DNA of 64,000 nt from Gloeobacter kilaueensis JS1 (GTDB lineage Bacteria; Cyanobacteriota; Cyanobacteriia; Gloeobacterales; Gloeobacteraceae): positions 4,394,234-4,458,233 of the forward strand of contig NC_022600.1 in the NCBI RefSeq assembly GCF_000484535.1. Reading direction: 5' to 3'. Within the stretch, counting starts at the first letter, position 1, and each line of letters begins with the position of its first letter. The notes below the pieces were generated by a model. It saw only the letters and a program-made list of their open reading frames with translations, was not told the DNA's origin and made no database searches. This document shows, in pieces, positions 32,918 to 64,000 of this stretch. Position numbers and translations under genes: made by a program.

Positions 32918-32930
32918 GGAGGTCAAAACC

Positions 32931-33743
32931 ATGTCCACTTCTCATCTCACCCGCCCCGAGACGCTCCTCGCCCTGCGCAACGTCTCCAAAGTCTTCCCGT
33001 CCTCCACCGGTCCGCGCACCGTCCTCCAGCAGGTCAACCTCACCGTCAGCGAGGGCGAATTCGTCTGCATCATCGGCCACTCCGGCTGCGGCAAGACGAC
33101 CCTGCTCAACATGGTGGCGGGATTTCTCACCCCCAGCGAAGGGGAGGTGCTACTCAAATCCGAGCCCATCACCGCCCCCGGACCAGACCGGATGGTGGTC
33201 TTTCAGGGCTACGCCCTGTTGCCGTGGCTGTCGGCCTTCGAGAACATTTATCTGGCCGTCGATGCGGTCTGGCCCACCAAGTCGCGCACCCAGAAGACAG
33301 CGATCGTCCGCGAGAACCTGGCCCTTGTGGGCCTCACCGACGCCGCCCACAAAAAGCCCAACCAGCTTTCCGGCGGCATGAAGCAGCGGGTGGCGATTGC
33401 CCGCGCCCTTTCGATCCGGCCCGAAGTCTTGATTCTCGACGAACCGTTCGGTGCCCTCGATGCGATCACCAAAGAAGAACTGCAGGAAGAACTGCTCAAG
33501 ATCTGGAATGCCAGCCGCTGCACGGTCTTGATGATTACCCACGACATCGACGAGGCGCTGTTTTTGTGCGACCGGCTGGTGATGATGACCAACGGTCCCG
33601 CCGCCCGGATCGGCGAAATCCTCACCATTCCCTTTGCCCGCCCCCGCGAGCGCTCCCGGATTATGGAAGACCCGGCCTACTACGAACTGCGCAACACCGC
33701 CCTCGACTTTCTCTACCGCCGCTTCGCCCACACTGAGACCTAA
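32931..33743 (+). CDS. cmpD: Bicarbonate ABC transporter ATP-binding protein
   Basis: A 270-residue single-domain ATPase, the counterpart of nrtD. It has Walker A GHSGCGKTT, signature [15 protein letters not shown], Walker [12 protein letters not shown] and the ending DFLYRRFAHTET. GGAGG ten bases before the ATG at 32931 fixes the start. It is last in the operon. Its final 41 bp occur again in direct orientation at 40419-40459, bracketing an accessory island. Confidence 0.87.
   Translation: MSTSHLTRPETLLALRNVSKVFPSSTGPRTVLQQVNLTVSEGEFVCIIGHSGCGKTTLLNMVAGFLTPSEGEVLLKSEPITAPGPDRMVVFQGYALLPWLSAFENIYLAVDAVWPTKSRTQKTAIVRENLALVGLTDAAHKKPNQLSGGMKQRVAIARALSIRPEVLILDEPFGALDAITKEELQEELLKIWNASRCTVLMITHDIDEALFLCDRLVMMTNGPAARIGEILTIPFARPRERSRIMEDPAYYELRNTALDFLYRRFAHTET
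33703..33743 (+). repeat. Left copy of a 41-bp direct repeat (3' end of cmpD)
   Basis: TCGACTTTCTCTACCGCCGC and the rest of the cmpD tail up to the stop codon match 40419-40459 at 38 of 41 positions. The first 31 bases are identical. Such a duplicated gene end is the usual footprint of a site-specific integrative element (attL-like). Confidence 0.6.
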
Positions 33744-40232: not shown

Positions 40233-40418
40233 CGCCAGACCACCTCAAGTTCTGCTCATAGCTTACCTAACTGGAACATTTTCATGTCTGAAAAAGTTAA
40301 GCTTTTCAGAGCCTTATTGCTCTTGGGGCGATTCATCAATCACCTTTCCCGTTGGACTCTCTGGTGCTAAACCCGTGTCGGTCGGAGCATTAAAGACCAC
40401 TGATCGGCGTAATCGCCA

Positions 40419-40459
40419 TCGACTTTCTCTACCGCCGCTTCGCCCACACCGAGACGTAG
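40419..40459 (+). repeat. Right copy of the cmpD 3'-end repeat
   Basis: Encodes DFLYRRFAHTET and a stop, as cmpD does, but with nothing of cmpD before it. The differences from 33703-33743 are three bases, one of them in the stop codon (TAG for TAA). Orientation is the same as cmpD, so the 6.7 kb between the copies is bracketed by direct repeats (attR-like). The 263 bp from 40233 to 40495 hold no other gene. Confidence 0.6.
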
Positions 40460-49447: not shown

Positions 49448-50971
49448 CTAATCCATCTTGAACCTGAGGGTCCGCTCGCTCACAATGCGCAGCATGGCCT
49501 GCCGCTCCTCCGGTGCCAGCAGCACCGACCACGTTACCACAATCCAGGCTGGCAAGACGATGAAAAGATATACAAGTTTGGCGATCGGGCCGATGAGAAC
49601 AAAGGCTGGGATGAAGCTGAGCATCGGCACCCCGAGCAGCAAAAAGAGTTGTCTGAGCCGCTTCCACCTGCCAGGCAGGTACTTTTGGATCAGAACAAAG
49701 AGCAGCACCATATCTGCTGTGACTCTTGCAAGCCAGGCAAGAGCTGCTCCTTCGATACCAGCCTTGCTCACCAGCCAATAGAGCCCGACGAGATAGAGCG
49801 GCGCTTCTACGAAGTGCAGCCTGGCGGAAAGATCGGGTTTACCGACAGCCTGTACCAGGCACAGTGCGATCTGAGCAAGCGAGTTGACGTAGATGCCGAT
49901 GAGTATCCACTGGGCCACCCGATAACTGTGACTAGCAAATTCACTACCCAGCCAGAGACTCAGAATCTCCTGCGAAAGGGTTGTTCCGACTAGAACAACT
50001 GGAAGCAAGACAAAGGACAGATATCTAAGGCTGCGGACGAACAGCAATTCTGTATACTTTCGATCTTGAATATAACTGGTGGCAAACGCCGGGAACATGA
50101 CATTGGCGATCGTTCCGGCCACCAGACTCAGTCTTGAAACAGCCTCGCTCGGCGTGGCGTAGTAGGCCGCCGCGCTAATCGAAACCACAGCGCCAATCAA
50201 GAAGCGGTCTACGTAGGCAAGAAGCGGGCTAATCACGTTGCTCACGGTCATCCAGCCACCGAAGCGCAATAGTCTCGGGAGCACTTCTTTTGAAAACTCG
50301 ATGCGGCCCTTGAGGTACGGAAAAGCGCGCAGGCAGAGAAGGTAGTGGGCCAGACAGGTGATGAGACGACTGGCTGCGAGGACGAGCACCACTGGCACCA
50401 GACTTCGGGAGAAGGGCAGAACCAGTACCGGCCCCAGGTAGTTGAAGATCCCGGCAGGAATGCGAATCGCGTTGATCAGATCGAAGCGCTGCAGCACTTC
50501 CAGGATGCCGCGCAGACCGGCGGTGACGATCACGCAGGGAATCGATGCACTCAACAGGTAAAAAGAGGCGAGCGTCTCCTGTTGCAGGGGAAGGGGCACC
50601 TTCAAGGCGCTGTAGACCAGCCACGGCGTCACCGCGACGAGGATGGCCGCACCGGTCAGGCCGAGACCGAGCATGAGTAGCAGGGAAGTCCAGGTAAGAC
50701 TGCTCAGCTTCTCCTGCTCGCCCAGACCCAACTGCTCCGCCAACAACTGGGTCAGAGCCCGCCCCAGGCCAAAGTCGAACAGGCTGAAGTAGCCTATTAC
50801 CACCCAGGCCAGGGTCAGGACACCGAAGCGGTCCGTTCCAAGTTGACCAATAAGAATCGGGATCGCAAAAAGCGAAACCAGCACCGGCACAGCCTGGGCA
50901 GCAAGACTGGAGATCGTATTTTTGGCCAGCAGGCGACCACCGGTTAAGGTGCCAGCAGTAGATTCAGGCAT
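49448..50971 (-). CDS. Polysaccharide flippase (Wzx-like)
   Basis: A 507-residue membrane protein with about 12-14 helices, beginning GRLLAKNTISSLAAQAVPVL and ILIGQLGTDRFGVLTLAWVV, typical of the MOP/Wzx family that flips lipid-linked repeat units across the inner membrane. C-terminal ERQAMLRIVSERTLRFKMD is cytoplasmic. Its partner polymerase is the divergent gene at 52444. Confidence 0.88.
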   Translation of the reverse strand: MPESTAGTLTGGRLLAKNTISSLAAQAVPVLVSLFAIPILIGQLGTDRFGVLTLAWVVIGYFSLFDFGLGRALTQLLAEQLGLGEQEKLSSLTWTSLLLMLGLGLTGAAILVAVTPWLVYSALKVPLPLQQETLASFYLLSASIPCVIVTAGLRGILEVLQRFDLINAIRIPAGIFNYLGPVLVLPFSRSLVPVVLVLAASRLITCLAHYLLCLRAFPYLKGRIEFSKEVLPRLLRFGGWMTVSNVISPLLAYVDRFLIGAVVSISAAAYYATPSEAVSRLSLVAGTIANVMFPAFATSYIQDRKYTELLFVRSLRYLSFVLLPVVLVGTTLSQEILSLWLGSEFASHSYRVAQWILIGIYVNSLAQIALCLVQAVGKPDLSARLHFVEAPLYLVGLYWLVSKAGIEGAALAWLARVTADMVLLFVLIQKYLPGRWKRLRQLFLLLGVPMLSFIPAFVLIGPIAKLVYLFIVLPAWIVVTWSVLLAPEERQAMLRIVSERTLRFKMD

Positions 50972-51016
50972 AGAAGCAGAGCCGCCAATAGAAGTGGGCC
51001 GTCACGAACTCATCTG

Positions 51017-52183
51017 TCAAATCGTAGCCCCCGCCGGGATGGCCCAGCGCTCCTGCACGAGTGAGCCAATCGTCATTGCCCAGCTATCCCAGTTCAGCCG
51101 TGCCTCGAAGGCAGCCCGACTAGATCGTACCAGGGCGATGTAGCGTTCAGGCTCGCCGTAGATCCAGGCTATTTGTCGGGCATAGGCTTCTCCCCTGGCT
51201 TCGTAGGGTAGGATAAAACCGTTCTCGCCGTCTTGAACGGCACCGGCCACACCGCCAGTATCGGCGACAAGCACCGGCAAGCCAGCAGCGGCGGCTTCGC
51301 AAAGCACAATTGGGGTACAGTCGGCCCGCGTCGGCAACAGCAAAAAATTGGAGGCAAGCAACAGAGTCAGTAACTGGCGACTTTGGGCTGGATTGTTTTT
51401 GCCAAGAAAGGGGATCACCTTTAGATGTGGATGGTCAAATCGGGCTGGTGGCACACAGCCGCAGATCGTTAGCTGTGCCGGAATGCCCAACCTATCGAGA
51501 GCTAAAAGTGTCTCAAAGGTAATCTCGCCCCCTTTGCGCTGCCAGTCCACACCCAAAAACAGTAGCTGGCACCGGTCACCGGGCTGGCGGCCCAGGGCTT
51601 CCTCGTGCGCCGGTGCCGGTTCGAGGTTCGCACCGAAGGGTACGACCACCAGCCTGTCTGAATCGACGCCGTAATCTCGCCGCGCCGAAGCGGCTGCCCA
51701 TTGTGAAGGATAGACGAGCAGGCCCGCCCGACGAGTGGCACGTCTCTCGATCTCCTCTGCCTCCTTTTCGTTTGTCAGATTTGAAAAGTCAGGGTAGTAG
51801 CCCCGCAGCAGAGAGACAGTTGCGTCCGACAGGTAGACGAGCGGCAGCGGCGTGTCTAGAAAAGCAATCTCAGTAGAGGCAGCCGGAGCAAAAACCCAGT
51901 CGAAGCGCTCCCGCGCAAGCTTTGCGGCGAATCTCTGAGCGTAGTGCCGGGCAATAAGGGTGCTGAAGGCGTAATCGTATTTTTTGCCCAGGAGGCGCAA
52001 AGAGAGCTGGTTGCGCACTTTGCCCAAATAAAGGGTGATGTCCGGTGGCACTGGCCCGAGGGGCACAACCTCGCCGCAGTGCCGTTCGAGTGCCCAGAAC
52101 ATACTGGCCAGCGTGCCTGACCAGGCGCGTCGATCCCCCGGATCGCGGGCTGAGACAAAGGCGATGCGCGGCCTTTTCTTCAC
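51017..52183 (-). CDS. GT4-type glycosyltransferase
   Basis: A 388-residue GT-B enzyme. It begins KKRPRIAFVSARDPGDRRAW; the donor half has LLFLGVDWQRKGGEITFETL and LLPTRADCTPIVLCEAAAAG, again with the E-x7-E neighbourhood. The start is GTG at 52181-52183, which overlaps the stop of a 39-codon frame as GTGA. First clear gene of the minus-strand polysaccharide operon. Confidence 0.87.
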   Translation of the reverse strand: MKKRPRIAFVSARDPGDRRAWSGTLASMFWALERHCGEVVPLGPVPPDITLYLGKVRNQLSLRLLGKKYDYAFSTLIARHYAQRFAAKLARERFDWVFAPAASTEIAFLDTPLPLVYLSDATVSLLRGYYPDFSNLTNEKEAEEIERRATRRAGLLVYPSQWAAASARRDYGVDSDRLVVVPFGANLEPAPAHEEALGRQPGDRCQLLFLGVDWQRKGGEITFETLLALDRLGIPAQLTICGCVPPARFDHPHLKVIPFLGKNNPAQSRQLLTLLLASNFLLLPTRADCTPIVLCEAAAAGLPVLVADTGGVAGAVQDGENGFILPYEARGEAYARQIAWIYGEPERYIALVRSSRAAFEARLNWDSWAMTIGSLVQERWAIPAGATI

Positions 52184-52299
52184 ATCGGACTTTTCATGAT
52201 GCGGCCTGACCGGGAAAGCCAGAGCTGCTCGGCAGCCCGTTTGCCAAAGACGCCAAGGGCAGCCAGAGCACAGATTCCAGTGGAGGCGGGCACCTGCAT
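52180..52299 (-). CDS. Possible 39-residue leader ORF with a PEP-CTERM-like tail
   Basis: ATG at 52297-52299 opens MQVPASTGICALAALGVFGK then RAAEQLW and a stop at 52180-52182 that overlaps the next start. VPxSTG, a short hydrophobic stretch and a KR pair resemble a VPEP/PEP-CTERM sorting tail, but the Pro-Glu-Pro core is imperfect and 18 residues follow the basic pair. It could be a leader peptide, a gene remnant, or chance. Confidence 0.25.
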   Translation of the reverse strand: MQVPASTGICALAALGVFGKRAAEQLWLSRSGRIMKSPM

Positions 52300-52443
52300 G
52301 TTTCTGGATGAGACGAGATAATTCGCACAGAAGCTACCACACCGAGCCAGCTCCGTCAATCTGCCGGGTAAGAGCCTGGAGACTGGGGATACTGGACACC
52401 TCTGGTATTCTTAAAAAGGCCGCGCTGCCTGATAGATAGACAA

Positions 52444-53847
52444 ATGGATTTAGGTTTTTTCTGTATCGCCGCGATCTGCCTGCTGGTGGGACTTGCCTGG
52501 TTGGAGCATCGTCGGCTGGGCTGCATCTCACCCTGGTCAATTTTCCTGACGGCCTACGGTCTGCAGACGCTCGCAGCTTACTTTTTTATTCCGCTGGCCA
52601 GTCTGGTAGTGGGTCCCTTCGCTGCTGAGACGATCTCAAAGAGCGCCGACACAGCCTTACTGGTCAATCTGGTGGGCCTGGCTTTTCTAGTAGTAAGTTT
52701 CTACCTGTTTCGGCTCGTCTCCCAGGCAAAAGGGCAGGTATCCATCCAGGACAAGGCTCCAGCAGAGCCGTTGGCTGAGAGTGGCTTGATTAGCGATCGA
52801 CGAGCTGCGTACCTGTTTGGGGCCGTCGCTCTTGCCTCTGCCCTGGTGCTTCTGAGTGTCATGCTCTACGCCCAGACCATCCCGGGACTGAGCGAGGACG
52901 TGGCTTCTGCCCGCACGTTTATCAATGACTATCCCGAACTGCGTCCGCTCTACAACACTGCCAATTCGCTGGGCGCGCTTGCGCTCGAATTTTTTGGTCT
53001 GGCACTGATACTGCGCTGGCGGCAACTGCCCTGGCAGTCTCTGGTACCATTGCCACTGCTGGTGATCGTTCTGTTGCTGACTGGCAACCGCTCCTACCTG
53101 GCAGGGCTCCTCTTTGGCCTCATCAACGGCCTGTCGCTGCGTTGGCTGGTACAAGGCCGGAGCTTCAAAGTTTCATATCCGCTCTATCTGGTCTTTATCT
53201 TTCTGTTTACGCTCTTGAGCGGCCTCAGTAGTCTGGTCCGTGAAGCTGGGGTGCCTCAGTTCGCTGGCTGGCTGGTGAGCAATCCAGTTGCTCTGCTCTC
53301 CTACGCCGCCTTCTACGCTTACGCTGGTAACAATTTCTCGGAGTTACGCGACTTTGCTTGGGTACTCTCAAACTTCGACGGCGAATTTTTGGGCGGCAAA
53401 ACGCTGCTGGCCGGGATTGCTGGTTTCATCCCGACTGCGATCTTGCCATTCAAAGAGGACTATCTATTCTCCCGTGTGACAAATCAGATCGTCGGATTGC
53501 CTACCGATACGCACTTTGGCCTGCGCGCCTCTCTTTTTGGAGAATGGTATCTCAATTTTTTCTGGATCGGCGTGGTTGTGTTCGCCGTAGTAGCAGGGGT
53601 GAGTTTTGCGCTGCTGCAGCGGCGTTTCGAGCGGCGGCTGGTAGTCCTCGCTGGCACGGGTCGCTGGAGTGCAGTTGGTATCCTGACACTTTTCTGGTTC
53701 GCTAACGTCATCCAGGCTGTCGGCAGTACAGCTAACCTTTCACAGCTGTATGTTCAGGGATTGTTGTTGACAGGAGCTTACGTTCTCATCCGGCCCCGGC
53801 CTGCCGATCCCCCCACTGCGGCTGCGCCGTCGGAGGTTTCCCGATGA
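52444..53847 (+). CDS. O-antigen/exopolysaccharide polymerase (Wzy-like)
   Basis: A 467-residue integral membrane protein with about ten or more helices and a large loop in the second half (SNFDGEFLGGKTLLAGIAGF, then THFGLRASLFGEWYLNFFWI), the pattern of oligosaccharide repeat-unit polymerases. Sequence identity in this group is low, so the call rests on topology and context. No clear ribosome site precedes ATG 52444. The 3' end overlaps the next start by ATGA. Confidence 0.75.
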   Translation: MDLGFFCIAAICLLVGLAWLEHRRLGCISPWSIFLTAYGLQTLAAYFFIPLASLVVGPFAAETISKSADTALLVNLVGLAFLVVSFYLFRLVSQAKGQVSIQDKAPAEPLAESGLISDRRAAYLFGAVALASALVLLSVMLYAQTIPGLSEDVASARTFINDYPELRPLYNTANSLGALALEFFGLALILRWRQLPWQSLVPLPLLVIVLLLTGNRSYLAGLLFGLINGLSLRWLVQGRSFKVSYPLYLVFIFLFTLLSGLSSLVREAGVPQFAGWLVSNPVALLSYAAFYAYAGNNFSELRDFAWVLSNFDGEFLGGKTLLAGIAGFIPTAILPFKEDYLFSRVTNQIVGLPTDTHFGLRASLFGEWYLNFFWIGVVVFAVVAGVSFALLQRRFERRLVVLAGTGRWSAVGILTLFWFANVIQAVGSTANLSQLYVQGLLLTGAYVLIRPRPADPPTAAAPSEVSR

Positions 53848-56186
53848 AGGGTGCTGTCCTGGGTGCTGTCCTGCTACTGGCTACCAGCGCACCGGCATTC
53901 GCTGCTGATGATCACGGATTCTGGGTTGCCACCGACAACTCTGCTCCTCTGGCTGCAGGGATGGTCGATTACCTTGCGCGCTGGCAGCAGGAGGTACCTT
54001 CTTTGCGGCTGCTACTTGTCTTCAGTAAGGAAAATCGCCTGACACAGGCACTCGATCGGCTGCGACCGCTCAGCTTGCCCGTGGGCCTGCAAACGATTGG
54101 TGTCGGCTACGAGCAGGACGTGGGGCGGATCTGGGAGCAGGCGGACTATAGTCACCCGGATAGCTGTGCGGTGCTTGGTCCCCAGACCAGCCAGTGCTGC
54201 GAACCTGAAGCGCTCTGCGCCTCCTCGTTGCACATGGCGGCGATGCTCGCTCCGTCCTACGCGCGCGTCTGGCAGGGATGGCTTGATTTTGCCCGCACCC
54301 GGCCACAGATATTTACCGTGAGCTATTCGGACTCAGTCTGGCCCTGGGCTACCCGTGGGGTGCCAGGCCGGGCGGGTTATAGTCCCACTACCCAGGCAGC
54401 TTTCCGCACCGATCTGGCTGGTCGAGACGAAAAGTTGCTTGTGCTGTCCCCTCAAGGAGCAGCGCGCCGCCTCAGCTTCGCTGATTATGCCGCTTTTTAT
54501 CTGGGTGAGAAGCCTACCCCGGCCTACTTTGGGGTGTCCAAGTGGTCCGAGTGGCAGCCTCCGGCCACTGCCTTGCAGATGATGGCAATAGCCAACCGCA
54601 ATCGTCCGGTTGTGGGTTGGAGCCACGACCCCCAGCTCACCCTCTTCGATTTGCTGGTGAGCTACGAGTGGTTGAAGTTTCAGCAGCGTCTGGCGCTGTA
54701 CGCCCGCGAGCGCCGCAGTGATCTGTCCTACCAGCTCATCGCTAATCCAGAAGCGATCGGCGTCGGCACCGACTTCAAGTGGTTGATGCGCCTTGCTGCC
54801 TATCCTTTTGCTGCCCAGGAGTGGTTCGTAAACAGCTCGGTAGTTGACGGCGCTTACGTCAATGCTCACTACTATACCGACGCAGCGGTACCGCGACCAC
54901 GAGTAGGAATTTCTCTGGAAGCGGGAGAAGGGGGTAATGGTACGCCCTACCACGATGTCCAGACAGCCTATGCCCTCGCCTACGATCTGGGGGCGGCGGT
55001 AAACGCTTCCTGGCTAGAGGGTGATTTTTTGCCCCAGATGCCTCCCACCGAGATGGTGCGGCTCTGTTTTTCAGACGCTCAGCACAACTGTCAGTTTTAC
55101 CGCCGGGCTCTCGGACTGCGGGCTTACGGTCTTGGCTATCAGGATTATCAGCGGGACGCTCCGGTGCCCCGACCAAGTGCCCTGCTGGCTATCACTAGTC
55201 GCAATCTCTTTCGTCCCTACTCCATAGGCTTCCGTGCCTGGGAGTGGTCTGCGACGGGCAATTACGAAACGACGCTAGGGGCTGTGGTCGAGTTGGGCTA
55301 CCAGCTCAAGGGAACAGCCGAGGACAGCGAGATAGCCGCTGCCCTCGAGCGTTCGCGCACCGTTTTCTACGAACCCCTCTTTGCCCTCCAAGCAGGCTGG
55401 CAGCGGGTGCGTCAATGGCTCACCACCAGCCAGGGGCGGATGCTGTTGACGACTGCAGGGGTCTGGCAGCGGCCCATCCTCAATACACGCGCTCAACTGC
55501 TACCGGCGCGCGAGGAATTGCTGCGGCTGGCGGCTCCGAAACAGTGTTCAGCTGGTGCCGTCTCCGGAGCTACCCGCTCGTTCTCGCTCTATCCGCTCGC
55601 CCAGCCTGCGGGCTGGCAAACCCTGGTTGCCTGCGGCTCTCAGCCTCTGGTCAGTGTTCGTCCACTGGGCCGGGGCCGGATCGTATTCTTGCACTTCGAT
55701 CCGTCTGAACCCGCCGTGCGAGAATCGCCGCTGATGGCCGAACTGTACAGAGCGCTGCTACCGCGACTTGGCCTGGTCGCTCCCGTCCAAGCAACAGGCG
55801 CAAATGTACATCTTTACAGCACGCGAGACTATCAGATTGCGGCTGTGCGCAGTCGTGCGCTCGACAAGCCCGGTTCCTGGCGGTCTCCGGACGGCACTCC
55901 CCCGATCGCCGTCACCCTGCAGGCCGGTAAAGCCAATCAGGATTATCACTTACGGATGCTGCTCAACAACGAAGAGATGACATTGCGGACAGACAGGGCT
56001 GGCTGGCTGCGCTTCAACGTGCCCAACCGCTACGAACTGGTATTTTTGCAACCCGCTACAAAAGCTGAAACGGCAGCCTGGAGAGCGTTGCGTGAGCGAT
56101 CGCGGCGTCTGGGATCGTTGTTTGCCGCCGAGACGGATCCCAGCACCTGGACACCGGGCAACTCTTCCCTACAGGTTGCGAAGTAA
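53844..56186 (+). CDS. Large secreted protein linked to the polymerase gene, function unknown
   Basis: A 780-residue protein with a signal peptide (MKGAVLGAVLLLATSAPAFA, cleaved before ADDHGF). The mature part has cysteine pairs (SQCCEPEALCASS) and blocks such as VGWSHDPQLTLFDLLVSYEW and GISLEAGEGGNGTPYHDVQT. A C-terminal domain contains LGRGRIVFLHFDPSEPAVR, which resembles glutaminase-type Rossmann segments near carbohydrate enzymes. No family was firmly recognised. Coupling by 4-bp overlap to the Wzy-like gene implies a role in processing or exporting the polymer; this is inference. Confidence 0.65.
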   Translation: MKGAVLGAVLLLATSAPAFAADDHGFWVATDNSAPLAAGMVDYLARWQQEVPSLRLLLVFSKENRLTQALDRLRPLSLPVGLQTIGVGYEQDVGRIWEQADYSHPDSCAVLGPQTSQCCEPEALCASSLHMAAMLAPSYARVWQGWLDFARTRPQIFTVSYSDSVWPWATRGVPGRAGYSPTTQAAFRTDLAGRDEKLLVLSPQGAARRLSFADYAAFYLGEKPTPAYFGVSKWSEWQPPATALQMMAIANRNRPVVGWSHDPQLTLFDLLVSYEWLKFQQRLALYARERRSDLSYQLIANPEAIGVGTDFKWLMRLAAYPFAAQEWFVNSSVVDGAYVNAHYYTDAAVPRPRVGISLEAGEGGNGTPYHDVQTAYALAYDLGAAVNASWLEGDFLPQMPPTEMVRLCFSDAQHNCQFYRRALGLRAYGLGYQDYQRDAPVPRPSALLAITSRNLFRPYSIGFRAWEWSATGNYETTLGAVVELGYQLKGTAEDSEIAAALERSRTVFYEPLFALQAGWQRVRQWLTTSQGRMLLTTAGVWQRPILNTRAQLLPAREELLRLAAPKQCSAGAVSGATRSFSLYPLAQPAGWQTLVACGSQPLVSVRPLGRGRIVFLHFDPSEPAVRESPLMAELYRALLPRLGLVAPVQATGANVHLYSTRDYQIAAVRSRALDKPGSWRSPDGTPPIAVTLQAGKANQDYHLRMLLNNEEMTLRTDRAGWLRFNVPNRYELVFLQPATKAETAAWRALRERSRRLGSLFAAETDPSTWTPGNSSLQVAK

Positions 56187-56202
56187 TACACTGAGAAGCG
56201 AG

Positions 56203-56442
56203 CTACAGCGGTGGGCCATCCGGTACTGGTTCGGCAGGTTCGGTCCCTGGGCCTGGTATAACCCGTTCCGGTGGCAGGGGCGTGGGCGGCTCCGGCGCAG
56301 GAGTGGGCACAGGTAATTCCGGCGGCGGGTCCGGGGTGGGAGCCGGGGGAGATTCAGGAGGCGGTGCGACCGGACCTGGAATTGGCTGCGGCTTTGGGAA
56401 CGGCACCTCGATCGCCAGTGGATTTTCAATAACAGTCGGCAT
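56203..56442 (-). CDS. Small proline-rich protein
   Basis: A 79-residue protein, about 40 percent proline, with repeated P-x-P units (FPKPQPIPGPVAPPPESPPA and onward). It has no signal peptide and no recognised domain. GGAGAACCTGT precedes the ATG at 56440-56442 at good spacing, which argues that it is a real gene. It follows thrC on the minus strand after 69 bp. Confidence 0.5.
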   Translation of the reverse strand: MPTVIENPLAIEVPFPKPQPIPGPVAPPPESPPAPTPDPPPELPVPTPAPEPPTPLPPERVIPGPGTEPAEPVPDGPPL

Positions 56443-56511
56443 ACAGGTTCTCCAGGCACTGCGTATCGCCTCAGTCTAGAGAACCTGCCCAGTAGAAACC
56501 TCTAGAAAAAG

Positions 56512-57702
56512 TTACATCTGACCTGCGAGAGCCTCGGCCATCGCCTCAGGGTACTTGAGGGCGGAGCCGGTGTTGATAATTACGACGCGCTCGTCGGAGA
56601 AGATCTTGCCCTCTTCCTGGAGCCGTTCCACAGCGGCGAGGGTGGCCGCTCCCTCAGGTGCAGCAAAGATACCGGCCCGCTCCGCCAAAAGCCGCATCAT
56701 CCTGGCACAATCGGCGTCACTCACCGCCAGGGCCGTACCGCCGGTTTCGCGCACCGCCTGCAGTACCAGAAAATCACCCAGAGCCTTGGGTACGCGCAGG
56801 CCCGAGGCGAAGGTACGGGCGTTCGGCCAGAACTCAGACTCCGGCTGCTGCTCTTCAAAGGCTTTGACCAGCGGCGCACAGCCTTCGGCCTGGACGACGA
56901 TCAGCCGGGGCAACTTGCCACTCACCCAACCGATGGCGCGCAGCTGCTTCAAAGCCCGCCAGATGCCGATGATTCCCACGCCGCCTCCCGCCGGATAGAC
57001 GATCGCATCGGGCAGTTGCCATCCCAGTTGTTCAGCAATCTCAAGGCCAAGCGTCTTCTTGCCCTCGATGCGGTAGGGTTCCTTGAGCGTCGCAGCGTCG
57101 AACCAGCCGTGTTCCCGAATGCCCTGGGCAATCTTTTTGCCTGCGTCTGAGATGAGCCCGTCCACCAGTTGCAAGTCCGCGCCGTAGAGGCGGCACTCCA
57201 GCTGGTTGATTGCGGGGGCATCCTTTGGCATCGCCACATGCACGCGAATGCCGGCAGCCGCTCCGTAACAGGCCCAGGCTCCACCGGCATTGCCCGCTGT
57301 GGGCAACGCCACCGCCCGGATACCAAATTCTTTGGCCTTCGAGATGCCGCAGGAAGCCCCCCGCGCCTTGAAGGAACCGGTGGGGTTAAGCCCGTCGTCC
57401 TTGAGCCAGACCTGAGTTAACCCCCAAGCGCGGGTGATCGAGCTGATGTTCAGCAACGGCGTGAAGCCCTCGCCCAGGCTCACGATCTGCGTAGGGTCGC
57501 CTACCGGTAGAAATTCGCGGTAGCGCCACATCGTCGGCGTACGCTCGGAGATGGTCTCTTTGCTGACGGCAGTGCGGAGGCGATCGAGGTCGTACTCGAC
57601 TAAAAGCGGCGACTGACAGGCGACACAGAGATTTTGAATGGTCTGTGGATCGTGCTGAAGCTGGCAGCGTGGGCAGATAAGGGCAGTGACAAAGGCAGAC
57701 AT
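56512..57702 (-). CDS. thrC: Threonine synthase
   Basis: A 396-residue PLP enzyme converting O-phosphohomoserine to threonine. A zinc-ribbon-like N-terminus has Cys10, Cys13, Cys26 and Cys29. The PLP lysine is Lys112 in NPTGSFKARG; PTAGNAGGAWACYGAAAGI binds the phosphate; IIGIWRALKQ and GSALKYPEAM are late motifs. The first 34 codons plus upstream DNA are duplicated at 59895-60050. Confidence 0.93.
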   Translation of the reverse strand: MSAFVTALICPRCQLQHDPQTIQNLCVACQSPLLVEYDLDRLRTAVSKETISERTPTMWRYREFLPVGDPTQIVSLGEGFTPLLNISSITRAWGLTQVWLKDDGLNPTGSFKARGASCGISKAKEFGIRAVALPTAGNAGGAWACYGAAAGIRVHVAMPKDAPAINQLECRLYGADLQLVDGLISDAGKKIAQGIREHGWFDAATLKEPYRIEGKKTLGLEIAEQLGWQLPDAIVYPAGGGVGIIGIWRALKQLRAIGWVSGKLPRLIVVQAEGCAPLVKAFEEQQPESEFWPNARTFASGLRVPKALGDFLVLQAVRETGGTALAVSDADCARMMRLLAERAGIFAAPEGAATLAAVERLQEEGKIFSDERVVIINTGSALKYPEAMAEALAGQM

Positions 57703-57756
57703 GGCGAGTGCAGCAGTGAGGCTCCCTTCATAACACGCATTCTGAGGCTAATCATG
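57601..57756. repeat. Left copy of a 156-bp direct repeat covering the thrC start
   Basis: Matches 59895-60050 base for base without gaps, with about 12 differences (92 percent). It covers thrC codons 1-34 and 54 bp upstream. Confidence 0.85.
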
Positions 57757-57816
57757 CGCGCAAGCAAACACTTTCATCACCTGCATGCAGTTATCTACAT
57801 CGAATCGCACAAATAT

Positions 57817-59340
57817 TCAGATGGATGGCTTTAAAGGCGTCTCGCTTAGTAAATTCGCGGAAATGAGTCGAGCTTCTAGGTCTCTTCTTCTTGCGATCTC
57901 CGCATTAAGAAGTATTTGCAAAAGATTGACAAGTTCGGCGACTTTTCTAGCTTCCGTTGAACTGTATCTATGCGATGGATTTCTCAGTGGCTCAATACGG
58001 CAGTATTCTGGATCTATGGCAGCAGGAAGTACAGCTAGCTTCATATCTCCCTCAGCAAGAGCAGCAAGTTTGGGGTTGCCAGAGGGATTAGACTTATAAT
58101 TTCCTGATGCAATCGTGGTAGTTCCTAGAACTAAATTGTCAACAAAATTATTGCCACCATTAAGAGCATCACATTTCAAGTTACCTGTGATGACGTTGAA
58201 GGCATAGTAACCATTTATTGCAAATCCATCGACATAAAGTGAAGCCATAGTGCAGTTAGTAATGTAGACACCTAGGCCGGTACCTCCCTTGTGAGTCACA
58301 GAAACGTTTCCTATATCACAGTTTGTGAAACGTTGATTGGAAGCGCCAGAATAGTCAAGAATTACATTTCCAACTTTAGAACTATCTACTTTGAATCCTG
58401 GAGTAATACCAACATTATATAAATTACCAGTATTTTCGCAGGTTGATATGTAACTTCCGGCAGTTATACCACTTGTAGGATGGCTAACTCCATTTAAATC
58501 CCGTGAGTTCACAAAGGTGGCAATTCCGTAACCTGTAAACGTAAACCCAGTCTTAAATTGCGACAATGCAACTTCACTGAAGTTAAAATCTCCACCTTCG
58601 GCCCTGAAAAATTCATAAACCCCCGACGGGCCAGTTCTTACTTCACCATGCACTTGTGAGAAAGAAATCCCGATGGGACCAGATCCAGAGCCGAGCTGCA
58701 CAAAGATGTATGGAGAGACATTATTCTGTTCACACTCTAAAACGTTAAAGCGCAGCATATTGCAGGCATCATTCTGAATACTGCTCGTCAAATGTATTGC
58801 TCCGTAAGTAGTTTTACTTGGATCAGTTGGGTCACCTGACGTTCGTCCGCAACCCTGCACATTTAGATTTCTAAATTCGCTATCTTGGCATTTATCGAGG
58901 AGTAGGCCAGCTCCATTAAAGCTAAGAATCTGAACGTCAGTGAGCAGTGCATAAGCTATGTATTTAAGATAGATTCCGTGACATGTAGCAGAACCACTGC
59001 TATTGTAGTTGCCTTGAAAGGTGAGATGCTCAATCACGATTCCCCAAGAGAAGTTACTCGCATCTGCGAAGTACTGCAAGGCTCCCTTGCTACTGTTGGA
59101 AATAGAACAGACGATGATAGAATAAGTATTGCTGGTGCCAGACAGCCTAACTGTTCTGCCATTTGGTACTGATGGAGGCACAGTCAGTGGTTGTTTGATC
59201 AACCAATATCCCGCAGGAAAATAAAGATTTGTGTAGCCATTATTAAGTGCATTCTGTAAGAGCGAATAGTTGTCAAAAATACCGTCTCCTTTGCATCCCA
59301 AATCACGAACATCCGTCAGAGTTTCTTTGTACGTAGTCAT
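57817..59340 (-). CDS. Right-handed beta-helix protein of the phage-tailspike / pectate-lyase-3 type
   Basis: A 507-residue protein. The N-terminus VRDLGCKGDGIFDNYSLLQN is the typical first motif of the pectate-lyase-3 beta-helix; residues about 90-430 are short beta-strand repeats rich in Gly, Asn and Ser. A short coiled coil (LVNLLQILLNAEIARRRDLE) at the end could trimerise it. No signal peptide is present. The gene is far AT-richer than thrC and stands between copies of the thrC start, both signs of transfer. A polysaccharide-degrading or polysaccharide-binding role is inferred from the fold. Confidence 0.75.
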   Translation of the reverse strand: MTTYKETLTDVRDLGCKGDGIFDNYSLLQNALNNGYTNLYFPAGYWLIKQPLTVPPSVPNGRTVRLSGTSNTYSIIVCSISNSSKGALQYFADASNFSWGIVIEHLTFQGNYNSSGSATCHGIYLKYIAYALLTDVQILSFNGAGLLLDKCQDSEFRNLNVQGCGRTSGDPTDPSKTTYGAIHLTSSIQNDACNMLRFNVLECEQNNVSPYIFVQLGSGSGPIGISFSQVHGEVRTGPSGVYEFFRAEGGDFNFSEVALSQFKTGFTFTGYGIATFVNSRDLNGVSHPTSGITAGSYISTCENTGNLYNVGITPGFKVDSSKVGNVILDYSGASNQRFTNCDIGNVSVTHKGGTGLGVYITNCTMASLYVDGFAINGYYAFNVITGNLKCDALNGGNNFVDNLVLGTTTIASGNYKSNPSGNPKLAALAEGDMKLAVLPAAIDPEYCRIEPLRNPSHRYSSTEARKVAELVNLLQILLNAEIARRRDLEARLISANLLSETPLKPSI

Positions 59341-59891
59341 ACCAATAACCTCTCAGATGCGGCAATTGTTACATTGGGAATTTTGCCTTGTCTGTATTCC
59401 ATAACACATGCAAGTACTGGCAGCAATGCGCCTCAAATATTGCTATTGGTACCTTTGCTCAATAACGGCGGAGCCCCCTATATGCCTATTCCTGTGCGTT
59501 CCACTCTTCTCAAACTGCTGGCACAGGCTGCTCTAATCCTGTCTCTACTCGTTTTCGACGTCATTTATGAGAGATATATTTACCTTAATGAGGCTCCTTG
59601 GCTCTATGTGGAGTAGAACAAATCCGGCGCTGTAAGCAGGAGAGGGTGCACAAAAAGCTCACCAAGGAGCCGCGACGGAAATCGGAGACGAGAGGGTCAT
59701 ACTCAATTATCCCTAATCTGTCACTTCAAGGTTTTTCAACGAGGGCAGTGCGTTTCAGGCTACGAGAAATCAACGTTTCACCCTGGTTTGACAAATCAGG
59801 GTTATAGCCATTGCCAGTCTGATTAGGACATTTCGAGAGGGCTGTGGTGTAGGTACTCCTGAGCTTTATGTCCTGAAAACCCTGGCGACAG

Positions 59892-59996
59892 CTATAAAAG
59901 TGGCGACTGACAGGCGACACAGAGATTTTGAATGGTCTGTGGATCGCGCTGAAGCTGGCAGCGCGGGCAGATAAGGGCAGTGACGAAGGCAGGCAT
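59892..59996 (-). pseudogene. thrC: Orphan 5' fragment of thrC
   Basis: From ATG at 59994-59996 it reads MPAFVTALICPRCQLQRDPQ and on to CVACQSPLL, then TAG. Against thrC it has two amino-acid changes (S2P, H17R) and several silent ones. All four cysteines are kept. It is a remnant, not a gene. Confidence 0.85.
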
Positions 59997-60050
59997 GGCG
60001 AGTGCGGCAGTGAAGCTCCCTTCATAACATGCCCTCTCCGGCTAATCATG
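59895..60050. repeat. Right copy of the 156-bp thrC-start repeat
   Basis: Direct orientation relative to 57601-57756, offset 2294 bp. Between the copies lies only the beta-helix gene and AT-rich DNA. Confidence 0.85.
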
Positions 60051-60079
60051 AGGATAGGCTGGGATCTCGCCCTTCTCCG

Positions 60080-61360
60080 CTACGGCACCGCTACCTCCGC
60101 CAGACCATCGACGAACTCGGCAGCGCGCTCGAAGCGCGGGGCAATGACAAACTGGCCCTTTTTGTCGATGTAGCCGTACTTGCCATCCACGGCAACCGCA
60201 GCCAGCCCATCGGAGAACGAACCGGCAAAAGTGAAGCGCGGGGCGATGGCAATGTTGCCTCTGGTGTCGTAGTAGCCCCACTTGCCGTTCTGCTGGAAGG
60301 GCGACAGTTCTTCTGAGTACAGGAGCGCAGAGCTGGATCGTGGTGCAACGACGAAGGTGCCGTTGCGATCAATTACGCCCCATTTTCCATCGATGTATCG
60401 TGGCCCTTCCCAGCGCTCTTCGACCGCAACCTGGGCCTGGCCACTGCAAAACTCGTAGGCACTGGTAAATCGCGGCGGAATGACAAAGTGACCGGCATGA
60501 TCGATGTAGCCCCATGTTCCTCCAACCTTTAACCGTGAAAGCAGGGGGTGGGGTTTGGCACCAACGTTCACAGCCGCCAGACCGCCGCTGAAGGCGGTGG
60601 CATTGTCGAACTGGGGAGCAATCACAAATGTGCCGGTTCGGTCGATGTAGCCCCACTTGTTGCCGGAAGCCACCGGAGCCAGACCATCAGTACCGAATTC
60701 TCTGGCTTCATCGAACTGGGCAGCGATCGCAAAATGACCTGTGCGATCGATCCAGCCCCACTTGCCGCCGCGCTTGTCCTGATAGCGGCCCTGGGCACCA
60801 ATGTTGACCAGCGCCAGACCGTGACAGAAACCTCGGGCGATGTCGAACTGGGCCGGGATGACCAGTTGACCGGTGCGGTCGATGTAGCCCCACTTGCCGC
60901 TGTTGACCGCACCGACGGAACTGACTTCGCCCCCGACGTTGACGGCAGCCAGACCCTCGCAGAAGGGTTGAGCGGCGGCGTAGGTGGGTGTCACACAGGT
61001 GCCGGTCCGATCGATGAAGCAGGTTTTATCCCCCTTGCGCACGATGGCGAGCCCATCGCTAAATTCACCGGCCCTGTCAAATTGGGCGGGAACCACGATT
61101 GCCCCTGTCCGGTCGATATAGCCGTACTTGCCTTTGACCTGGAAAGCGGATAACCCTTCTGAAAAAGGCGCTGCACCGTCGAACGCCTGGGGCGGAATGA
61201 CGAACTTTCCGGTCGTATCTATATAGGTTATTTTGTAAGTAGTGCCGGATGGTGCGCTCTGATTTGGAACAAAGATTCCATGCGGAGTCGGAAAAGCAGA
61301 AGCGCTGCCTGCAAGGATCTGGCCCATGAAAACGACGAAGCAAGCCCATGTTTTAGCCAT
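60080..61360 (-). CDS. Secreted WG-repeat protein
   Basis: A 426-residue protein with a signal peptide (ACFVVFMGQILAGSASAF) and ten WG-type repeats of about 35-45 residues. Each has the form YIDRTGxFVIPxQFDxAxxF followed by GLAxVxxxGKWG. The repeats form a small beta-propeller-like or solenoid surface; no enzymatic residues are known for this family. The role is probably extracellular binding. Confidence 0.88.
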   Translation of the reverse strand: MAKTWACFVVFMGQILAGSASAFPTPHGIFVPNQSAPSGTTYKITYIDTTGKFVIPPQAFDGAAPFSEGLSAFQVKGKYGYIDRTGAIVVPAQFDRAGEFSDGLAIVRKGDKTCFIDRTGTCVTPTYAAAQPFCEGLAAVNVGGEVSSVGAVNSGKWGYIDRTGQLVIPAQFDIARGFCHGLALVNIGAQGRYQDKRGGKWGWIDRTGHFAIAAQFDEAREFGTDGLAPVASGNKWGYIDRTGTFVIAPQFDNATAFSGGLAAVNVGAKPHPLLSRLKVGGTWGYIDHAGHFVIPPRFTSAYEFCSGQAQVAVEERWEGPRYIDGKWGVIDRNGTFVVAPRSSSALLYSEELSPFQQNGKWGYYDTRGNIAIAPRFTFAGSFSDGLAAVAVDGKYGYIDKKGQFVIAPRFERAAEFVDGLAEVAVP

Positions 61361-61440
61361 AGGATTTTCCGCGAATCGTTCGCAGTTATCGTATCATTGA
61401 TTCCGGCTTTTGGGCGCGAGTCGGTATCGATTTTTTGGAA

Positions 61441-62208
61441 CTACTGTTCTTGATAATTCCAGAGCAGGCCACCATCGACGAAGAGGGTGGTGCCGGTGAT
61501 GTAGTCGGCGTCGGTAGAGGCGAGAAAGAGCACGGCTCCGGCCACGTCTCTCGGCTGGCCCAGCCGCTTGAGGGGAATGTTGGCGAGCAGGGCGTTCAGT
61601 TTTTCGGGATCGTTGAGGAGCTTGGTGTTGATCGGCGTCTCGATCGCACCGGGGGCAACGTTGTTGATCGTGATGTTAAAAGGTGCCAGCTCGATCGCCA
61701 GGTTGCGGGTCATCATCTTCAAACCGCCCTTGCTTGCACAGTAGGAGGTGAAGTGGGGAAAGGGCAGCTCCTCGTGGACGGAGCTGATGTTGACGATCTT
61801 GCCGGGCCGCTTCGCTTCGATCAGGTGCTGAACGAACGTCTGGGTAGCAAAGAAAACGCCCTTGAGGTTGGTATCCAGAACCGTATCGTAGTCCTCCTCG
61901 CTCACCGTCCAAAAATCGGCGTTCTTTTCGACACCGGCGTTATTGACGAGAATATCCACGGTGCCGAAGTGGGCAACGGACTCCTTTACCAGACGGCGAA
62001 TGTCCTCTACAGAGGCGAGATCGGCCTGGACGACCAGCCCTCTGCTACCGGCAGCTTCGACCTGGGAGAGGGTCTGCTTGGCCCCGTCCGGGTTGCTGCG
62101 GTAGTTGATGACAACCGCTGCGCCTGCCTGGGCAAGGCGGATAGCGATGGCCTGGCCGATGCCCTGACTGCCGCCGGTGACGAGAGCAACTTTGCCTTCG
62201 AGCTTCAT
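61441..62208 (-). CDS. SDR-family glucose/sugar 1-dehydrogenase-like oxidoreductase
   Basis: A 255-residue short-chain dehydrogenase. NAD(P) site [24 protein letters not shown] motif in [11 protein letters not shown], catalytic Ser in VNISSVHE and Tyr-x3-Lys in [12 protein letters not shown]. The closest named group is glucose 1-dehydrogenase; substrate is not certain. Its start overlaps the rpiA stop by 4 bp, so it belongs to the pentose-phosphate operon, where glucose oxidation to gluconolactone would fit. Confidence 0.88.
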
Positions 62209-62915
62209 GGATGTTCTCCTCCTGCCTGTAAAGTCTGGATGCCTTCTGGGCGAGCAACGATGACCTGAGAGGCCATGCCGATAAAAAGACCGCTCTCGAC
62301 GACGCCGATCGTGGTGGCCAGGGCGATTTCCAGCCCAGCCGGATCGGCGATGGGGCCGGTGGCACAGTCGAGAATGTAGTGGCCACCGTCGCTCAGGTAC
62401 GCCTGGCCGTCGGTGCCCAATCGCAAGGTGGGCCGGAGGCCCATGTTCTGCAGGCGGGTCTGAGTTGTCCGCCAGCCAAAGGGCACAACTTCTACCGGCA
62501 ACGGGGAGCGGCTACCGAGGCGATCCACCAGTTTGCCCGCGTCCACGACGATGACGAGCCTGGTGCTGGCGGCGGCGACGATCTTTTCGCGCAGCAGGGC
62601 ACCGCCCAATCCCTTGACGAGAGCCAGGCTCTCGACTTCTACCTCGTCCGCGCCGTCGATGGTCAGGTCGAGGCGGGGCTGCTCCTCCAGTGTGGCGAGG
62701 GGAATGCCCAGGCTGCGGGCCTGCTGAGCGGTGCGCTCGGAGGTGGGCACACCGACAATTTTCAAACCGGCCTGCACCCGCTCGCCGAGGGCGGCGACGG
62801 CGAAGGCGGCGGTGCTGCCGGTGCCGAGGCCCAGTACCATGCCGTCCTGGGCAAGGGCGACAGCCTGCCGGGCGGCGGCTTCTTTGAGCTGGTCAATCTG
62901 GGTCTGGGTGCTCAT
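62205..62915 (-). CDS. rpiA: Ribose-5-phosphate isomerase A
   Basis: A 236-residue isomerase interconverting ribose-5-phosphate and ribulose-5-phosphate. Motifs: [20 protein letters not shown] (phosphate binding), [11 protein letters not shown] with catalytic Asp, and [20 protein letters not shown] at 62913-62915 ([16 protein letters not shown]) is used; the longer frame lies inside rpe. Confidence 0.95.
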
Positions 62916-62919
62916 AGAT

Positions 62920-63606
62920 TTAGCGGGTAGGGGCGGTGGCAGGTCGTCTGCTGTTGCGAATCCCGGCGATGGCAGCGGCGTAGTCGCCGGAGCCGAAGAT
63001 GGCCGAACCGGCGACGATCGCATTGGCTCCGGCTTCGATGGCTTCCCAGGCGTTGTCGGGTTTTTCGCCGCCGTCCACTTCGATCCACGGATCGAGGCCG
63101 CGCTCGTCACAGATTTGCCTGAGAGTGCGGATCTTGGGGAGCATCGGGCGGATGAATTTTTGACCGCCGAAGCCGGGGTTGACGGTCATCACCAGGATCA
63201 CATCGCACAGGTGCAGCACGTAGTCGAGAAAGTCGAGGGGAGTGGCCGGATCGACTACCGCCCCCGCCTTTTTGCCCAGTTCGCGAATCTGGGTGAGGGT
63301 GCGGTGCAGATGACCGGTTGCCTCTACCTGCACCAGGATGTGATCGGCTCCGGCGCGGGCAAAATCGGCGACGTAGCGCTCCGGTTCGACGATCATCAGG
63401 TGGACGTTGAAGGGTCTGGCGCTCAGGGGCCGGATCGCCTGGATGACCACAGGACCAATCGTGATATTCGGTACGAAGCGGCCATCCATCACATCGACGT
63501 GGATCCAGTCGGCTCCGGCGGCATCTATAGCCTGCACTTCTTCGCCCAGGCGGGCAAAGTCGGCAGAGAGAATCGACGGGGCGACGACGATCGGTTTAGA
63601 GCCCAT
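62920..63606 (-). CDS. rpe: Ribulose-phosphate 3-epimerase
   Basis: A 228-residue TIM-barrel epimerase of the Calvin and pentose-phosphate cycles. [35 protein letters not shown] (metal His and Asp), [22 protein letters not shown] and [12 protein letters not shown] are all canonical. ATG at 63604-63606. It is 4 bp before rpiA, 13 bp after pgl. Confidence 0.96.
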
Positions 63607-63619
63607 CGCAAAAATCTCC

Positions 63620-64000
63620 CTACAGCAATTTTGCCGCCGCTTCGTCCACCATCCAGAGCAGCGTGCCGTCGGTGGGCCGCACGATCTGGCTGGGAAACTG
63701 TTCGGGCTGAAACTCCCCTTCGAGGACGCTCTTGAGGGTCTGAGCCTTCTCCTCGCCGGTGACAAAAAAGAGGATATGGCGGGCGTTGTTGATCACAGGC
63801 GGGGTAAAGGTGATCCGGAAAGTATTGAACTTGGCCACCCAGGGAGCGGCCACCAGCCGCTCGCGCTCGTGGACGAGGGGTGTGCCCGGAAAGAGCGAAG
63901 CGGTGTGGCCGTCCGGTCCCATGCCGAGCATGATCAGATCGAAGCGGGGCAGTTCTGGACCCGTCAGCTTAAAAAATTGCCGCAACTGCGCCTCGTACTC
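63620..64000 (-). CDS. pgl: 6-phosphogluconolactonase, C-terminal part
   Basis: The visible 126 residues read [20 protein letters not shown], the catalytic and phosphate-binding motif of Pgl, then [18 protein letters not shown]-type sequence ([20 protein letters not shown]) and [13 protein letters not shown]. The start lies beyond the window. With the dehydrogenase, rpiA and rpe it forms a sugar-phosphate operon on the minus strand. Confidence 0.93.

Follow-up and report, generated by a model that had tools for sequence, protein, structure and literature searches.

The question raised by this locus of Gloeobacter kilaueensis JS1 is how the beginning of thrC came to stand on both sides of an insert, and whether its second copy arose inside this genome or arrived together with the DNA beside it. 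In the window (the whole stretch of 64,000 nucleotides analyzed here), the intact thrC gene of threonine synthase type (56512-57702, minus strand), a PLP enzyme by its PF00291 match (E = 4e-77), includes the left repeat copy, which covers codons 1-34 and 54 bp of leader (57601-57756, minus strand). The right copy (59895-60050, minus strand) is an orphan with the same leader portion, which reads M-P-A-F-V... up to codon 34 and has TAG next; upstream of it lies a gene for a WG-repeat protein (60080-61360, minus strand; PF14903, 10 stretches). Comparison of the window with itself gave the two copies as a direct repeat of 156 bp with 0 gaps and 12 mismatches (92.3% identity, or 7.7% divergence; E = 7e-60). 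The edges are sharp, with 2 of 10 bases identical beyond the left edge, and 1 of 4 and then 4 of the next 10 identical beyond the right edge. The ungapped repeat of about 92% and the orphan of the first 34 thrC codons with upstream DNA, both described in the sequence-only reading, were thus confirmed.

The insert between the copies (57757-59894) is 2138 bp long and has 44% G+C, in comparison to 60.5% for the genome (PMC3806779). It carries a gene for a 507 aa protein of right-handed beta-helix type (57817-59340, minus strand), which is AT-rich, with a GC3 of 0.36 versus 0.77. This gene does lie between the copies as had been claimed, but not exactly, since 554 bp more follow before the right copy. 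No gene was read in these 554 bp, which hold an open reading frame of 80 aa (59374-59616, plus strand) and a MITE-like element (59711-59801). This element is about 91 bp long and is bounded by imperfect terminal inverted repeats; 3 further copies of it occur in the JS1 genome and similar stretches in the relatives G001, G002 and G003 (one, partial, in the last). An imperfect inverted repeat (59803-59896) terminates at the edge of the right copy; it was considered as a second mobile element and rejected, as it has no other copy in the genome and its folding was not significant (13 of 200 shuffles fold equally well).

The beta-helix gene had been taken for a foreign-looking tailspike-type gene, and this part of the earlier description was not supported. 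One copy of the gene is present in each of three congeners (G001-G003) and in a sister genus, where it adjoins nfi, while none was obtained for G004; among the relatives searched, it adjoins thrC in JS1 only, and blastn against the loci compared found no remnants of nfi-region DNA in the insert. The JS1 protein is 60.8% identical to that of G001 and 59.3% to that of G005, and these near-equal values fit a xenolog as well as they fit an ortholog that is old and AT-rich. By its PF12708 match (29.5 bits with a cut-off of 27, residues 10-77 only) and its predicted fold, the protein is of the right-handed beta-helix (pectate-lyase-like) class, as far as a model with repeated predicted strands and a modest pLDDT of 72 indicates. 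Neither the G001 nor the G005 ortholog matched a Pfam family, and no PDB sequence matched the family profile. Foldseek matched the model to beta-helix proteins, all with TM-scores below 0.5 and 8-17% identity among the best 50 matches; the Sf6 and CBA120 tailspikes and the RbmB lyase are among the best PDB matches of the predicted fold, but the insert protein differs from them in being encoded by a chromosomal Gloeobacterales gene whose fold is predicted here from the modest model at those TM-scores. A PHROG tail spike family matched it distantly (8e-13), the best phage matches were partial and 25-45% identical with 0 of 17 records reaching 80% coverage, and none of 8 viral stretches matching a pattern was confirmed. 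On these partial matches, the lack of a confirmed viral stretch and the chromosomal orthologs beside nfi, the gene does not look like phage cargo or a phage tailspike gene, and that reading was rejected.

The two thrC copies differ in 7 of the 54 leader bases and in five codons, of which three are silent, consistent with the earlier remark that the differences are partly silent, and two change an amino acid (S2P and H17R). The unit of about 2.3 kb is absent beside thrC in G001-G004, which are all four relatives with a matching thrC. Alignment was suggested as a way to recognize the native copy, and it was run against G001 and G003, but the differing codons did not point to either copy as the native one; the nearest thrC relatives compared have about 77-78% DNA identity, among them no close relative lacking the insert was found, and the protein is 78-79% identical to those of three congeners. 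A tandem duplication inside one genome, followed by insertion or deletion between the copies and free decay of the orphan, accounts for a direct repeat made of one intact and one partial copy, and at thrC taken alone it is compatible with the two replacements among five changed codons, as the codon test did not reject simple decay (P = 0.17).

The layout was considered over a larger sample, 1.6 of the 4.72 Mb of the JS1 genome, in which repeat pairs were accepted with E <= 1e-6, length >= 40, identity >= 80% and spacing of 0.2-20 kb; with these limits, rarer or older cases escape the survey, and that the identities fall in a narrow range is partly an effect of the limits themselves. An intact gene end, an insert and a diverged orphan of that end were found for five genes besides thrC, namely an ABC ATPase, a PfkB kinase, nfi and two unnamed genes, with repeats of 45-156 bp that involve the ends (5' and 3') of unrelated genes. 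The ABC ATPase case is the one that we take to be meant by the claim that the window has a second insert between duplicated ends of a housekeeping gene: the 3' end of the intact gene (32904-33743, plus strand) at 33698-33742 is repeated, with its stop codon kept, in an orphan at 40414-40458 (plus strand; 45 bp, 93.3% identity), and 6.7 kb with transposase genes lie between them.

The surveyed 1.6 Mb contained 36 direct versus 7 inverted pairs, and 16 versus 2 after exclusion of dispersed repeats (more than two copies in the sample) and of pairs lying within a single reading frame, an excess of direct orientation that favors import. One excluded pair, 4526854/4532740 (152 bp, 92.1% identity), looks similar to the thrC case. 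In 400 kb of G003, 8 direct and 4 inverted pairs were found, and 3 direct (two of them being its thrC case) and 2 inverted pairs remained after filtering. In 400 kb of the distant cyanobacterium G013, 70 direct and 45 inverted pairs were reduced to 1 direct (99.7% identical) and 0 inverted, although G013 is a poor control because of its many dispersed repeats.

Six of the 16 filtered direct pairs, chosen by eye for a readable gene end, were used in the codon test, so that the pool is small and selected. The pairs left out were long similar gene pairs (304985 and 1112753), unclear or non-coding pairs (4527024, 1014619, 1004234, 97864, 389367, 2771166 and 2860327) and a tRNA-like 3' end (2871879); for gene 193367-195814, the sixth case, the comparison was limited to the final 54 bp, avoiding a 2-base gap. 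The results showed that 7 of the 24 changed codons in the pooled six loci alter the amino acid, in comparison to about 17 expected for a decaying orphan (P ~5e-5; for each of four transition shares, 0 of 20,000 simulations gave so low a value), and that the result holds when thrC is taken out (P = 1e-4). For five of the six cases, pS was 0.17, pN was 0.022 and the non-coding divergence was 0.13, and the six tested orphan segments contain no premature stop. Given so few amino-acid changes, the two copies at each locus were probably functional alleles of separate lineages while they diverged. The pooled changes are thus not the neutral ones of a simple tandem duplication with decay, and we regard this origin as unlikely.

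The codon pattern by itself would be predicted equally by old functional paralogs standing side by side, one of which was later trimmed to its end by insertions and deletions, as selection between two such copies should leave, by reasoning, the same trace as between two alleles. This explanation requires a tandem paralog for six unrelated genes, each trimmed to the insert-facing end, and no second full thrC of more than 40% identity was present in any Gloeobacter genome among the matches listed; we consider it quite improbable.

Further evidence came from the congener G003, where thrC-CAP sequence flanks an insert on both sides. The leader and the part of CAP adjoining the intact thrC are 87.4% identical to G001 and 82.8% to G002, while for the copy beyond the insert the values are 92.9% with G002 and 82.9% with G001; the DNA that follows this copy is 96.6% identical to G002. 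On these identities, G003 shows an independent case of a like process at thrC, in which the two CAP alleles appear to be of different ancestry; that they differ in nearest relative also argues against tandem duplication. For the thrC fragment on the far side of the insert, identity is 90.6% with G002 and 93.0% with G001, so that this fragment lacks the G002-like signature of the neighboring DNA, which counts against import. The claim that the insert came from a related strain and not by tandem duplication is hence favored by the six pooled loci and by G003, but not by thrC alone.

G003 also bears on whether the JS1 arrangement was produced by misassembly, that is, by joining in the published sequence two co-existing strains, one with the WG gene next to thrC and the other with the beta-helix gene next to thrC. 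The culture from which JS1 was sequenced was not axenic (PMC3806779), and a second strain would also yield a similar divergence at many loci. Against this stand the like layout in G003 and the assembly as reported, in which 9-kb mate pairs linked all contigs, a single scaffold was obtained and nine long-range PCRs covered suspicious regions (PMC3806779), and misassembly is in our judgment an improbable source of the repeat.

Elements which insert into icd carry a replacement gene end, and the replacement ends of such elements are also diverged, with changes that are mostly silent. If an element of this kind integrated site-specifically at gene ends, the outcome would thus resemble what is seen here, and the tRNA-like 3' end at 2871879/2874135, duplicated around 2.2 kb, speaks for such an event. 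The targets and the ends involved (5' and 3') vary, and no integrase or recombinase family was found among 16 scanned proteins from four of the five other JS1 inserts (all but the one by gene 193367) and from the G003 insert, the families present being ParE, IS605 TnpB, C39-like peptidase, DDE transposases, BrxL and AbiEii; in the thrC insert, the beta-helix gene is the one gene read. We therefore hold this reading to be very unlikely.

The explanation that we favor, and that we regard as probable to a fair degree, is that DNA of a related lineage, bringing that lineage's thrC start, was inserted next to thrC and did not replace it. Its observed part consists of the layout, the recurrence in the surveyed part of the genome, the allele-like pooled divergence and the independent case in G003. 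Homology at thrC would anchor the incoming molecule, and the other end, in unrelated DNA, could be closed by a single crossover of a molecule circularized with a partial homologous stretch or, alternatively, by illegitimate joining near codon 34. Either closure would place the orphan start copy next to the upstream gene, followed by the insert with its beta-helix gene and then by the second start copy, which leads into the thrC body. The 156-bp repeat is the direct duplication of a homologous stretch at both insert ends that is expected of a single-crossover (Campbell-type) event. We infer the transfer itself, its route, its direction (which start came in) and the exact joining mechanism. Natural transformation is a plausible route: families of ComEC and DprA are present in the JS1 genome, and a review lists all three com homologues and a nearly full pil set for JS1 (PMC7690421).

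Gloeobacter is thought to have branched off before the other known cyanobacteria, and gene order is poorly conserved between the first two of its species to be sequenced (PMC3806779). It is conceivable, although we would not count on it, that additive imports have marked the JS1 chromosome throughout, that all of them came from a single unsampled sister lineage about 7-8% diverged (pooled silent divergence 0.17), each leaving a gene end with a second, short allele, and that such imports may be a main cause of the lost gene order. If true, the orphans would be donor fossils that locate gene gain without any donor genome. Partial second alleles beside inserts are readable scars of the entry of accessory DNA into a chromosome, and by the codon pattern alone an insert that brought in a relative's allele can be tested against one that came after a local duplication. 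In Gloeobacter, such scars could reveal which rearrangements are due to gene exchange as well as the character of the missing donor lineage.

A limited search found no paper on partial gene duplication with illegitimate recombination in natural transformation, nor on Gloeobacter horizontal gene transfer with partial duplication, and the nearest known systems each share part of the JS1 layout. About 10% of variable segments in E. coli have direct repeats at their base, and deletion between the repeats was considered there as a cause of variability (PMC2884548). In the orphan immunity-gene arrays of Vibrio T6SS (PMC5361080), old genes likewise remain after entry of a new module, by a mechanism the authors liken to homology-facilitated illegitimate recombination, but whole immunity genes remain there, whereas JS1 has repeats of 45-156 bp with ends of unrelated genes. 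Homology-facilitated illegitimate recombination, described in Acinetobacter, Streptococcus and Pseudomonas (PMC3240628, PMC5361080), would be similar in its anchoring by homology at a single end, in the little homology needed where the second end is joined and in the entry of foreign DNA next to a conserved sequence, a feature on which the differing composition of the insert and the recurrence of the layout bear in JS1; it generally deletes recipient DNA while JS1 keeps a duplicated gene end, and that classical one-sided events mostly delete and do not duplicate (PMC3240628) counts against import. A likeness in form is offered by the single crossover of a circular molecule with truncated homology in E. 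coli (PMC3240628), in which part of the target gene is likewise directly duplicated around the insert, with partial duplications of 109-950 bp ascribed to circular molecules missing part of the homology, and this speaks for import in JS1; that case involved a laboratory plasmid with lacZ sequence, whereas the copies in JS1 differ by 7.7%.

The sequence-only reading had described a 156-bp direct repeat of the start of thrC (a threonine synthase type gene), and this description was correct. The left copy (57601-57756) holds the start of the intact thrC (56512-57702, minus strand, PF00291), while the right copy (59895-60050) holds an orphan, that is, a short and diverged leftover copy of a gene end beyond the insert from the intact gene, consisting of thrC codons 1-34 followed by TAG. 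The two copies align without gaps with 12 mismatches (E = 7e-60), comprising five changed codons, three of them silent, and 7 of 54 leader bases, and the similarity falls away at either repeat edge. At 4,724,791 bp, the JS1 genome forms a single contig. Two strains may have been misassembled into one sequence at this locus, because the culture is described as non-axenic, but the mate pairs and long PCRs of the published assembly speak against such a mixture (PMC3806779).

The same layout recurs in JS1. In four blocks of 400 kb each (1.6 of 4.72 Mb), repeat pairs 0.2-20 kb apart, of at least 40 bp and at least 80% identity, numbered 36 direct and 7 inverted, and 16 direct and 2 inverted after removal of dispersed and within-one-reading-frame repeats, in comparison to 3 direct and 2 inverted pairs kept in a 400-kb control block of the congener G003, and 1 and 0 in that of a distant cyanobacterium. 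Six of the 16 direct pairs enclose an insert between an intact gene end and its orphan, namely the thrC start (156 bp, 92.3%), an ABC ATPase 3' end (33698-33742 and 40414-40458; 45 bp, 93.3%), a PfkB kinase start (139 bp, 93.5%), the 3' end of the endonuclease V gene nfi (52 bp, 92.3%), and ends of genes 1161428-1163614 (58 bp, 91.4%) and 193367-195814 (68 bp, 89.7%). Between the two ABC ATPase copies lie 6.7 kb that hold unknown genes as well as DDE transposases, and the orphan there still ends in a stop codon (TAG vs TAA in the gene). The cargo of the other inserts includes a ParE-type toxin gene, TnpB and DDE transposases, and no integrase was found among the insert proteins scanned. At the nfi locus (L089 8013-12446; G000:C1:1188013-1192446) two such inserts are adjacent, one, next to the nfi 3' end, carrying the ParE toxin gene, and the other, ahead of the PfkB kinase, carrying TnpB and a C39-like gene. 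Separately, a tRNA-like 3' end, recognized by eye, is doubled around 2.2 kb (G000:C1:2871879-2871925 and 2874135-2874183), resembling what tRNA-targeting integration would leave, and a repeat pair at 4526854/4532740 (92.1%) lies close to a second, partial DprA match under the family cut-off (G000:C1:4525442-4525723).

If an orphan were the decayed twin of its intact gene, changing neutrally, its codon changes would be expected to ignore amino acids. With the six pairs pooled, 24 codons differ and 7 of these alter the amino acid, in comparison to a mean of 17-18 in simulated neutral orphan change. With the transition share set to any of four values spanning 0.5-0.85, every one of 20,000 runs exceeded 7. 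The test gave P = 1e-4 without thrC and P = 0.17 on thrC alone, which by itself is no evidence and is compatible with a decayed twin at that locus. For the five ungapped pairs, pS was 0.17, pN 0.022 and non-coding divergence 0.13. Orphan and intact copies thus probably diverged with both under selection, either in two separate lineages as alleles or, on a less simple view, as paralogs of long standing. The like divergence of the six pairs would fit a single donor lineage, within the limits of few loci and a narrow search.

A comparison of the thrC region with relatives had been proposed for recognizing the native copy. A DNA search of five relatives with positions 50000-64000 found thrC in four, with the other region genes dispersed and no gene order around thrC in common; either copy may be the native one. 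A CAP family or CAP-like ORF adjoins thrC in the congeners G001 and G003. In G001, a second match to the thrC 3' end (L035 4235-4289; about 50 bp, 90% identical) lies immediately downstream of thrC, and such scraps are present in three of four Gloeobacter genomes, none being seen in G002 by this search. In G003 (L037 5244-13216), two thrC-CAP blocks surround BrxL and AbiEii remnants: next to an intact thrC and a truncated CAP gene come roughly 5 kb carrying these remnants and then a 172-bp thrC fragment, which runs directly into a thrC start, leader and intact CAP gene. On the side of the intact thrC, the leader and CAP sequence shares 87.4% identity with G001 and 82.8% with G002, in comparison to 82.9% and 92.9% for the copy past the insert, and these opposite affinities point to two alleles of different ancestry on one chromosome. 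The following 5.8 kb is 96.6% identical to G002, so that, on sequence comparison, the G002-like CAP allele is joined to a G002-like flank. For the intact thrC, identity is 91.3% to G002 and 89.5% to G001; the 172-bp fragment, at 90.6% and 93.0%, is at odds with a tidy story. The G003 arrangement is an event independent of the JS1 case.

The insert beside thrC (57757-59894) is 2138 bp with 44% G+C. Its beta-helix gene (57817-59340, minus strand) showed a weak RHGA/epimerase match and three PHROG matches, including one tail spike family. Matches to the gene occur in 5 of the 30 genomes searched, once each in JS1, its three congeners and the sister genus (G005). It is a chromosomal gene of Gloeobacter and its sister group despite the tail spike match, and the earlier label "tailspike" misleads on origin, given the single chromosomal match per genome and the adjoining nfi in G001-G003 and G005. 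In JS1, nfi lies at 1.19 Mb vs 4.45 Mb for the beta-helix gene, and an IS605-type TnpB gene stands on the side of nfi where the congeners have the beta-helix gene. A scan of genome contigs with two conserved patterns returned 43 stretches and confirmed only the G002 and G005 loci, missing those of G001 and G003, and is thus not exhaustive; no viral contig with the gene was confirmed among viral sequences searched by pattern, and phage relatives of the protein are partial and remote. GC3 of the beta-helix gene is 0.36 in JS1, 0.77-0.79 in the congeners and 0.435 in G005. The JS1 protein is nearly equally identical to those of G001 (60.8%) and G005 (59.3%), a result that suits a xenolog and an old AT-rich ortholog alike. 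Structures matched by its predicted model (pLDDT 72) include adhesins, lyases and tailspikes of the beta-helix type, all with TM-scores below 0.5 among the 50 matches listed; a role in surface polysaccharides is putative. The remaining 554 bp of the insert include a MITE-like element of about 91 bp (59711-59801), with three further copies in JS1 and similar stretches in G001, G002 and G003.

The insert at thrC is likely imported homologous DNA, as the sequence-only reading held, and sequence comparison now gives this reading grounds beyond its own in the pooled codon pattern, the recurrence and the G003 case. The uptake genes ComEC and DprA are present in JS1, and com and pil gene counts in a review also show uptake genes (PMC7690421). 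The layout fits two known routes. By one, a molecule homologous at one end would anchor in thrC and its other end would close illegitimately; by the other, a circle whose homologous stretch is cut short would integrate through a single crossover. In an E. coli study, deletions arose from one-sided events, and duplications of 109-950 bp were ascribed to one crossover of a circular molecule with truncated homology (PMC3240628); by this analogy, the duplication at the JS1 thrC would slightly favour a single crossover over one-sided joining.
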